64,000 nt of DNA from Flavobacteriales bacterium 34_180_T64 (lineage in GTDB: Bacteria; Bacteroidota; Bacteroidia; Flavobacteriales; Flavobacteriaceae). The position numbers and the translations under genes are program-made. The notes under the pieces were generated by a model that was not told where the DNA came from, made no database searches, and saw only the letters and a program-made list of their open reading frames with translations. This document shows positions 11,149-38,356 of this stretch, piece by piece. The DNA is taken from positions 62,001-126,000 of the forward strand of contig MAAR01000013.1 of assembly GCA_002162765.1 (NCBI GenBank), given 5' to 3'. Every line of letters starts with the position of its first letter. Within the stretch, counting starts at the first letter, position 1.

Positions 11149-11163
11149 GATGCAAAGGTATAA

Positions 11164-11192
11164 AAAAACCATCCGGATTTAGGATGGTTTTT
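11164..11192. terminator. Bidirectional intrinsic terminator between rlmB and the arylsulfotransferase gene
   Basis: AAAAACCATCC (11164-11174) pairs with GGATGGTTTTT (11182-11192) around the loop GGATTTA. On the minus strand the hairpin ends in a run of seven T, placed just after the stop of the arylsulfotransferase-like gene, so it would end the susC-to-sulfotransferase unit. Confidence 0.85.
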
Positions 11193-35652: not shown

Positions 35653-36036
35653 ATGGCAAAGTCAAGTACTAAAAAACGTAAAGTAATAGTAGACTCTATT
35701 GGAGAAGCACACATTGCTGCTTCATTCAATAATATCATTATCTCTTTAACCAATAAAAAAGGAGATGTCATTTCATGGTCATCTGCTGGTAAAATGGGTT
35801 TTAGAGGTTCAAAAAAGAACACACCTTACGCTGCACAATTGGCCGCTGAAGATGCTGCAGGAGTAGCAAAAGAAGCAGGGCTTAAAAAAGTGAAAGTGTA
35901 TGTTAAAGGTCCTGGAAATGGTAGAGAATCTGCGATAAGATCAATTCATAATGCTGGAATAGAAGTATCAGAAATCATTGATGTTACGCCTTTACCACAT
36001 AACGGATGTAGACCACCAAAAAGAAGAAGAGTATAA
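35653..36036 (+). CDS. rpsK: 30S ribosomal protein S11
   Basis: The 127-residue S11 contains '[20 protein letters not shown]' and ends '[18 protein letters not shown]'. It lies on the 30S platform. It is the last gene before the terminator at 36054-36091, which separates it from rpsD. Confidence 0.98.
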
Positions 36037-36053
36037 TTTATAGGCCTTTAAAA

Positions 36054-36091
36054 TTAATATCAATTGTTTATACAGTTGATATTAGTTTTTT
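36054..36091 (+). terminator. Intrinsic terminator between rpsK and rpsD
   Basis: TTAATATCAATTG (36054-36066) pairs with CAGTTGATATTAG (36073-36085) over 13 bp including two G-U pairs, loop TTTATA, then six T (36086-36091). It would end or attenuate the str-S10-spc transcript inside what is normally one alpha operon. Confidence 0.8.
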
Positions 36092-36104
36092 ATGCGTAAA
36101 TTTG
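36076..36104 (+). promoter_or_regulatory. Promoter for rpsD-rpoA-rplQ
   Basis: TTG (36076-36078), 18 bases, then TAAATTTG (36097-36104) fully match the Bacteroidota consensus. The -33 TTG lies inside the right arm of the terminator hairpin. The leader that follows is about 95 bases long and could form a long-range pairing GAGAG (36134-36138) with CTCTC (36185-36189); S4 autoregulation there is possible but untested. Confidence 0.75.
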
Positions 36105-36206
36105 CAAACTAAAATTAATAATCAAGTATCAACGAGAGAGCAACGTTTATCGAAGGATAAGATTAAGACCTTAATTCATAGACACTCTCATAACAAAATT
36201 TAAGAA

Positions 36207-36812
36207 ATGGCAAGATATACTGGTCCTAAAACTAAAATAGCCCGAAAATTCGGTGAAGCTATTTTTGGAGATGATAAAGCCTTTGAAAAAAGAAATTATC
36301 CTCCTGGTCAACATGGTGCAAATAAGCGTCGTGGAAAGAAATCTGAATATGCTATCCAATTAATGGAAAAGCAAAAAGCTAAATATACTTATGGTATTTT
36401 AGAAAAACAATTCAGAAACATGTTTAAAAAAGCAACTGCTGCACAAGGAATTACTGGTGAAGTATTGTTACAACTTTGTGAATCAAGGTTAGATAATGTT
36501 GCTTTTAGAATGGGATTGTCTCCTTCACGTAGTGGAGCAAGACAATTAGTGTCGCACAGACATATTACAGTAAACGGTGAAATTGTAAACATTCCTTCTT
36601 ACCAATTAAAAGCAGGAGATGTAGTCGCAATTAGAGAGAAATCAAAATCTCTTGAGGCGATTCAAAATTCATTAGCAAACTCAAGTAGTGTTTACGAATG
36701 GATTACATGGAATAACGATACTAAACAAGGAACATATGTTTCTGTTCCTGCTAGAGTTCAAATTCCAGAAAAAATTAACGAACAATTTATCGTTGAATTA
36801 TATTCTAAATAA
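36207..36812 (+). CDS. rpsD: 30S ribosomal protein S4
   Basis: The 201-residue S4 begins '[20 protein letters not shown]' and has an S4 RNA-binding domain ('[20 protein letters not shown]'). No N-terminal cysteine zinc cluster is present. S4 nucleates 30S assembly, and in E. coli represses the alpha operon by binding the rpsM leader. Here rpsD is the first gene after its own promoter and a roughly 95-base leader. Confidence 0.98.
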
Positions 36813-36833: not shown

Positions 36834-37826
36834 ATGGCAATATTAAATTTTCAGAAGCCCGACAAAGTAATCATGATTGATTCAACTGAGTTTGAAGGTA
36901 AATTTGAATTTAGACCTTTAGAACCAGGTTATGGATTAACAGTAGGTAATGCTTTAAGAAGAGTTTTGTTATCTTCTTTAGAAGGTTTTGCAATCACATC
37001 AGTTAGAATTGAAGGTGTAGATCACGAATTTTCTACAATTGCTGGTGTAGTTGAAGACGTTACAGAAATGATTTTGAATTTGAAGCAAGTAAACTTCAAG
37101 CGTCAAATTGATGAAATTGATAACGAATCGGTTTCTATCTCTATTTCTGGACAAGATCAAATCACTGCTGGTGATTTTCAGAAATTTATTTCTGGATTTC
37201 AAGTATTAAACAAAGACTTAGTGATTTGTAACTTAGATCCTAAAGTAAGTATCAATATGGAACTTACTATTGAAAAAGGAAGAGGTTATGTTCCTGCTGA
37301 AGAAAACAAAAAAGCTACAGCACCATTAGGAACAATCTTTACAGATTCAATATATACGCCTATAAAGAACGTAAAATACAGTATTGAAAATTTTCGTGTT
37401 GAGCAAAAAACTGATTACGAAAAATTAGTTTTTGAAATCGTCACTGATGGATCAATTCCACCAAAAGATGCATTGACTGAAGCTGCTAAAATATTAATTC
37501 ACCACTTCATGTTATTCTCTGATGAGCGTATCACACTTGAAGCTGATGAAATTGCACAAACAGAAACTTATGATGAAGAATCGCTTCACATGAGACAACT
37601 ATTGAAAACTAAATTAGTTGATATGGATCTTTCTGTGAGAGCATTAAACTGTTTAAAAGCGGCAGAAGTAGATACTTTAGGTGATTTGGTATCCTTTAAT
37701 AAAAATGATTTAATGAAATTCAGAAACTTCGGTAAGAAGTCTTTAACTGAGCTTGAAGAGCTTGTAAATGTTAAAGGATTGAACTTCGGAATGGATTTAA
37801 GTAAATATAAATTAGATAAAGATTAA
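36834..37826 (+). CDS. rpoA: RNA polymerase alpha subunit
   Basis: The 330-residue alpha subunit has the dimerising N-terminal domain ('[20 protein letters not shown]') and a C-terminal helix-hairpin-helix domain ('[20 protein letters not shown]', '[16 protein letters not shown]') that contacts UP elements and activators. It shares the rpsD promoter. A 59-base gap with a hairpin precedes rplQ. Confidence 0.98.
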
Positions 37827-37885: not shown

Positions 37886-38356
37886 ATGAGACACGGAAAA
37901 AAAATAAACCATTTAGGTAGAAAAACCGCTCACAGAAAATCAATGTTGGCAAATATGGCTTGTTCTTTAATAGAGCATAAACGTATTAACACAACAGTAG
38001 CTAAAGCAAAAGCGTTAAAGCAATTTGTTGAGCCAATGATTACAAAATCAAAGGAAGATACAACTCATAATAGACGTATTGTAATGGCTAGATTAAGACA
38101 AAAGGAAGCTGTTGCAGAATTGTTTAGAGATGTAGCTCCAAAAATTGGTGATCGTCCAGGTGGTTATACAAGAATCATTAAACTTGGGAACAGGTTAGGT
38201 GATAACGCTGATATGGCAATGATAGAATTAGTTGACTATAATGAACTTTATAATGCTGATAAGACAGCTAAGAAAAAGTCAACACGTAGAGGTAGAACTA
38301 AAAAAGTTGAGACGGCACCAGTTGCTGAAACAACAGCTACTAACGAGGAAGAATAA
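37886..38356 (+). CDS. rplQ: 50S ribosomal protein L17, C-terminally extended
   Basis: The 156-residue L17 begins '[20 protein letters not shown]' and is complete by about residue 120 ('[15 protein letters not shown]'). A tail of some 35 residues rich in Lys, Arg, Thr and Glu ('[20 protein letters not shown]') extends it beyond the roughly 127 residues of E. coli L17. The last gene of the supercluster; a strong terminator follows at 38381. Confidence 0.97.

Follow-up and report, generated by a model that had tools for sequence, protein, structure and literature searches.

A terminator-type hairpin overlaps the predicted rpsD-rpoA-rplQ promoter at the rpsK-rpsD junction of a marine flavobacterium

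In Flavobacteriales bacterium 34_180_T64, the upstream ribosomal transcript very probably ends at a hairpin just behind rpsK, with the same DNA forming the spacer of the promoter that serves rpsD, rpoA and rplQ. The layout of hairpin and promoter is conserved among relatives, it lies at rpsD, and its stem covaries at the level of RNA. The window under analysis is a stretch of 64,000 nucleotides (assembly GCA_002162765.1, contig MAAR01000013.1, positions 62,001 to 126,000 of the forward strand), and all coordinates refer to it. Direct reading of the sequence places the rpsK-rpsD intergenic region at 36037-36206, and the gene names S13, S11, S4, RpoA and L17 were assigned by NCBIfam matches. The parts of the junction and its genes are as follows.

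35653-36036, plus strand: rpsK (30S ribosomal protein S11; NCBIfam S11 equivalogs, 190.9 bits), last gene of the putative upstream transcript
36050-36089, plus strand: terminator-type hairpin, with 5' arm 36050-36067, loop 36068-36071 and 3' arm 36072-36089 (from fold, covariation and G-U bias)
36076-36078, plus strand: TTG at N18 from the -7 box, a candidate -33 element inside the 3' arm (TTG in 36 of 51 relatives)
36086-36091, plus strand: T-run TTTTTT, candidate terminator U-tract and, at -23 to -18, AT-rich promoter spacer patch (from sequence reading; T-19 and T-18 in 51 of 51 relatives)
36097-36104, plus strand: -7 element TAAATTTG of the predicted rpsD-rpoA-rplQ promoter (TA(A/C)ATTTG and then CA in 51 of 51 aligned relatives)
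36109-36111, plus strand: predicted transcription start (box-to-start spacing from the excerpts of PMC9723704 and PMC6847099)
36134-36189, plus strand: outer helix of the leader, GAGAG 36134-36138 with CTCTC 36185-36189 (pairing on 90 rows; outside the 33-position Rfam model)
36145-36183, plus strand: S4-Flavobacteria ribosomal protein leader RF03141 (44 bits, above the gathering score of 35.2)
36207-36812, plus strand: rpsD (30S ribosomal protein S4; NCBIfam, 281.3 bits), with its ATG at 36207
36834-37826, plus strand: rpoA (RNA polymerase alpha; NCBIfam, 458.6 bits)
37886-38356, plus strand: rplQ (50S ribosomal protein L17; TIGR00059, 142.4 bits)

The promoter and the bases it shares with the hairpin

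At the sequence level, the hairpin with its T-run (36050-36091) and the promoter (36076-36104) share DNA between two co-directional ribosomal transcripts. We compared 112 rpsK-rpsD sequences, of which 20 were left unparsed (17 loci of L002-L031 were reversed, and L059, L095 and L110 end before rpsK); L001, a repeat of the window, was dropped, and 91 parsed regions remain. TAnnTTTGCA is found in 53 of these, with the hairpin directly upstream in 52 of the 53. Counts over 51 rows leave out L070 (no hairpin) and L097 (identical to L028), and, the rows being related, neither these conservation counts nor the covariation counts given below tally independent events.

The -7 element expected for the primary sigma factor, TAnnTTTG, is present at 36097-36104 and in 51/51 relatives, and the positions fixed in every row are T-19, T-18, the -7 box as TA(A/C)ATTTG, the CA that follows it and C at +1. 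The bases after the box, 36105-36116 (mostly CAAACTGAAAAA among the relatives), hardly vary across the 51 rows and are perhaps a start-region signal. A sigma-70 scan, which addresses the wrong promoter type, returned 60 sites against 62.0 in shuffles. With TAnnTTTG set as -12 to -5, as in the excerpt of PMC9723704, transcription would start at 36109 and the leader would be 98 bases long; the initial annotation had put the start at 36111 and the leader at roughly 95 bases. The excerpt of PMC6847099 gives 4-5 bases from the -7 box to the start.

It had also been proposed that the terminator arm serves to supply the -33 element, and the comparison does not support this proposal. A TTG does stand at 36076-36078, within the right arm and separated by an 18-base spacer from TAAATTTG, yet the triplet at the aligned columns is TTG in 36 rows, ATG in 7, CTG in 6, TCG in 1 and GTG in 1, and 12 of the 15 rows without TTG retain all three pairs by way of an altered 5' arm. 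When the spacing is relaxed to N16-20, TTG is found in 38 of the 53 TAnnTTTGCA regions (inside the arm in 36), and likewise in 16 of 85 rough promoter predictions for this genome. Given its replacement in 15 of 51 relatives and its frequency among the genome's candidate promoters, we reject TTG as a conserved shared element; by itself it is not beyond chance at the rpsD promoter. The combination of hairpin and -7 box, judged by its conservation, is beyond chance.

The part that is shared at a constant position in the 51 rows is the T-run (-22 to -16) together with the A/T-rich arm. In F. johnsoniae the -33 motif is weak and the AT-rich motifs centred at -18 and -28 are more pronounced, according to the excerpt of PMC6847099, and the U-tract and A/T-rich right arm occupy these two places. 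We infer that the overlap consists of the U-tract plus arm acting as promoter spacer. The initial annotation is thus borne out in part: a terminator-type hairpin does overlap a promoter. This promoter is of the Bacteroidota type, and both elements are conserved with an S4 leader behind them.

Distribution of the unit and of its layout

A covariance model built on the hairpin and promoter together (R1) gives 78.6 bits for the rpsD site, and its second-best site in this genome reaches 33.5 bits; as only the rpsD site scores high, the idea that the unit is a dispersed repeat is rejected. The 80 named loci were selected as the top matches to RpsD of the window and are therefore biased to near relatives, and a sample of 299 family genomes was drawn separately. 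R1 matched at E 0.001 or better in 77 of the 299, representing 60 of 236 genera: 62 of these genomes were confirmed at rpsD, 8 matched elsewhere and 7 fell outside the check. The 62 comprise 30 fetched loci with the S4-leader core behind the box, 30 with an adjoining RF03141 match and two that were read (L203, L204); the rpsD start appeared in 29 of the 30 fetched loci, the read-out of L178 having taken an earlier ATG. In an order-wide sample, 16 of 296 matched, 5 of the 16 within the family. A tree of RpsD plus RpoA (81 rows), modestly supported with stars on 15 of 78 inner branches, groups the carriers of the unit in one section of the family and implies four or more changes of state, and loci L038, L070, L075, L089, L098 and L111 lack it within that clade.

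Outside the clade other arrangements occur. In loci of Salegentibacter, Gillisia and Salinimicrobium the region is short and the S4 leader is its sole element; it is also short in Flavobacterium-type loci, which keep the S4 leader and lack both hairpin and -7 box. Upstream transcripts presumably continue into rpsD in the Salegentibacter, Gillisia and Flavobacterium-type loci. Aquimarina loci (L084, L085, L087, L091-L093, L096, L100, L101, L104 and L108) carry a G-C-richer terminator-like hairpin and T-run before rpsD, and in all of them except L084 TAnnTTTG is absent after the hairpin.

The same layout can be found at other genes. In the window's genome it recurs before rlmB, mnmA, ftsY, a DnaQ-like exonuclease, mtaB and rpmB. 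The rlmB case lies in the window itself, on the minus strand at 11152-11192, where a terminator-type hairpin is fused to a TAnnTTTG promoter directly upstream of the gene as a stem, seven T and TACCTTTG. Among 30 fetched sites with a T-run and -7 box, a hairpin stands out clearly at the T-run in 8 (L112, L113, L116, L119, L135, L136, L137 and L139; according to a mechanical test L116 falls within a long ORF), and in 464 kb strong overlapping hairpins accompany 4 of 32 tandem candidate promoters against 0 of 53 divergent ones. In the order, R1 gave 11 matches in other families, 8 of which were fetched. A hairpin, a T-run and TAAATTTGCAAA stand directly upstream of RimO in L195 and of ORF starts in L197, L198 and L202 that are assigned by likeness only; the same series precedes a ribose-phosphate diphosphokinase (prs-like) in L199 and ORFs like it in L200 and L201. 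L196 is a weak R1 match. As the stems at the rimO-like and prs-like genes are unlike the rpsD stem, the layout arose repeatedly, at several genes. Genome-wide, a T-run followed by TAnnTTTG shows no excess (108 occurrences against 114 for the reversed pattern), nor does a T-run plus -7 box near 144 terminators (4, against 1-14 for other motifs), and on these counts a genome-wide excess is rejected; in A/T-rich DNA an overlap by itself can therefore come about by chance.

One rival reading is that terminator and promoter are simply neighbours in a short intergenic region rich in A/T, each conserved separately and the shared bases without effect. We give this an even chance, and it is compatible with the reading preferred here, as it disputes only the coupling between the two signals. 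The lack of a genome-wide excess is in keeping with simple abutment, as are the dispensable TTG and the unrelated hairpins that show the same layout before rlmB, ftsY, mnmA, rpmB and mtaB; what it does not readily accommodate is that T-19 and T-18 keep their position relative to the -7 box in 51/51 rows while the stem, the loop and the -33 region vary. The loci in which readthrough is presumed, having the S4 leader with neither hairpin nor -7 box, lend something to a second possibility, namely that the hairpin serves in processing or stabilises the 3' end while transcription reads through, the downstream 5' end being made by cleavage and TAAATTTG being incidental. An incidental box would not be expected to remain invariant, along with the next CA, in 51/51 rows amid neighbouring bases that vary, and the U-tract is kept as well, so we consider processing quite improbable.

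The hairpin as RNA and the S4 leader behind it

Folded as RNA, 36040-36100 forms a stem of 18 bp, two of them G-U, closed by a loop of 4 bases (-21.5 kcal/mol, z -7.3), and none of 200 shuffles is as stable as the 36050-36089 hairpin. The initial annotation had described a 13-bp hairpin with six T; the hairpin and the six T are indeed present, and it is the stem length that folding revises. As in an intrinsic terminator, the stem passes directly into a U-tract (36050-36091); it is long (18 bp) instead of G-C-rich, and because the generic terminator scan requires at least three G-C pairs and the stem has two, the hairpin is unlisted there. 'Terminator' is accordingly our working reading of a predicted element.

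In the 51 distinct relatives, the 14 core stem pairs are standard in 94.1% of cells against 86.3% when shuffled, and changes on both sides are seen at 12 of the 14 pairs. None of 500 shuffles reaches the stem's values on any covariation measure, and slid controls pair in 27-52%; the covariation that had been named earlier as a check on the hairpin is thus found. The departures from standard pairing are 58 G-U, 2 A-C and 8 others, and the T fraction in the 8 bases 3' of the stem is 0.73, compared with an A fraction of 0.47 in the 8 bases 5' of it. Since an operator or an opposite-strand transcript would show no G-U preference, selection appears to act on an RNA that continues the rpsK transcript on this strand, and on no symmetric DNA site. 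That the palindrome is a DNA operator over the promoter, bound by a regulator, is scarcely credible and is rejected on the ratio of G-U to A-C, for although it is a near-perfect inverted repeat across the -33 region with a largely conserved AATATC/GATATT core, its loop ranges from 3 to 14 bases, its T-run lies at one side, and the core is altered in L060, L067 and L079 with pairing kept.

Behind the promoter, the leader had been suggested as a candidate S4 target, and it matches a known family, RF03141, which exceeds its cut-off in 225 of the 299 family genomes as well as upstream of rpsD here. This S4 leader has been published for rpsD, rpoA and rplQ in Flavobacteria, S4 repression being a prediction in the excerpt of PMC7247131; the S4 target at rpsD, a predicted binding element, is already known and not new. 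In 90 rows the outer helix is paired in 88.9% of cells and has 66 double-change cells against 21.0 in shuffles, and double changes are seen at 4 of its 5 pairs, no more than in shuffles. Taken alone, the leader folds no better than shuffles (z 0.11). Between promoter and S4 leader, most loci that carry the unit retain AAGTATCAAC at 36124-36133; AAGTAT also occurs in some loci that have no hairpin and promoter, such as L071 and L090, and is absent from Flavobacterium-type rows.

Proposed mechanism and comparison with known systems

In the explanation we prefer, the transcripts of the long upstream ribosomal operon would fold into the 36050-36089 hairpin once past rpsK and terminate within the U-tract, at about 36088-36096. 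The same U-tract, with the A/T-rich right arm, would serve as the spacer of a primary-sigma (TAnnTTTG) promoter, from which the rpsD-rpoA-rplQ transcript would start near 36109 with a 98-base leader containing the predicted S4-binding element RF03141. This supposes that termination and initiation really occur at the junction; if they do, a terminating polymerase whose footprint covers the promoter may occlude or feed it, and some readthrough may co-express the downstream genes. A mutual influence of terminator folding and promoter use is plausible. It seems unlikely that the junction goes further and is a hand-over device, in which polymerase would release the ribosomal RNA on the spacer of the next promoter, pick up sigma on the DNA and start rpsD-rpoA-rplQ, such that alpha synthesis would be tied to ribosomal operon flux and selection would for that reason have kept the U-tract at a set distance from the -7 box and freed the -33 triplet.

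The rpsD unit offers a natural, compact and well-conserved test case for whether overlap couples one transcript to the next, in a cluster coding for ribosomal proteins as well as an RNA polymerase subunit, and the genera that carry it include cultured strains (Winogradskyella, Psychroserpens, Gelidibacter, Bizionia). It also bears on the evolution of transcript boundaries, the family presenting apparent readthrough (Salegentibacter-type), a hairpin with no visible TAnnTTTG (most Aquimarina) and the overlapping unit (the window's clade), with the S4 leader kept throughout. Among the matches listed for literature on terminator-promoter pairs, overlap and Flavobacterium terminators, no paper treats an rpsK-rpsD overlap in Bacteroidota, which is no proof of absence.

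The paper that PMC7055797 cites for the Salmonella inter-operon overlap is reportedly Brandis and others, 2019. Inter-operon overlaps of terminator and promoter connect tufB-secE in Salmonella, and likewise S10-spc-alpha; the one at tufB-secE matters for expression, and interrupting it lowers fitness (PMC7055797, excerpt). The concatenation of this same cluster of operons has been treated in Gammaproteobacteria and Bacilli (PMC8046335, excerpt). E. coli polymerase can remain on DNA after termination and restart at nearby promoters in vitro (PMC6978380, excerpt), and the rpsD junction resembles such recycling and reinitiation (excerpts of PMC6978380 and PMC11347151) in having a promoter close downstream of a candidate intrinsic terminator; it differs in being known from sequence alone, reinitiation having been demonstrated in vitro for the E. 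coli enzyme. It shares with the published RF03141 system (PMC7247131, excerpt) the element and the genes rpsD, rpoA and rplQ, and adds a further covarying outer helix beyond the 33-position Rfam model. With the Bacteroidota primary-sigma promoter (-33 TTTG / -7 TANNTTTG; excerpts of PMC6847099 and PMC9723704) it has in common the -7 box and AT-rich patches near -18 and -28, although here the patches come from a terminator arm and U-tract and the -33 triplet is not conserved. In arrangement it resembles the Salmonella overlaps as excerpted, where a terminator shares DNA with the promoter of the following transcript in the same ancient ribosomal cluster, as the candidate terminator does here; unlike those, the flavobacterial junction falls within the classical alpha operon, where rpsK gives way to rpsD, and has a Bacteroidota-type promoter. 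The rpsD unit is a well-conserved new example of terminator-promoter overlap, which has already been described in other bacteria.
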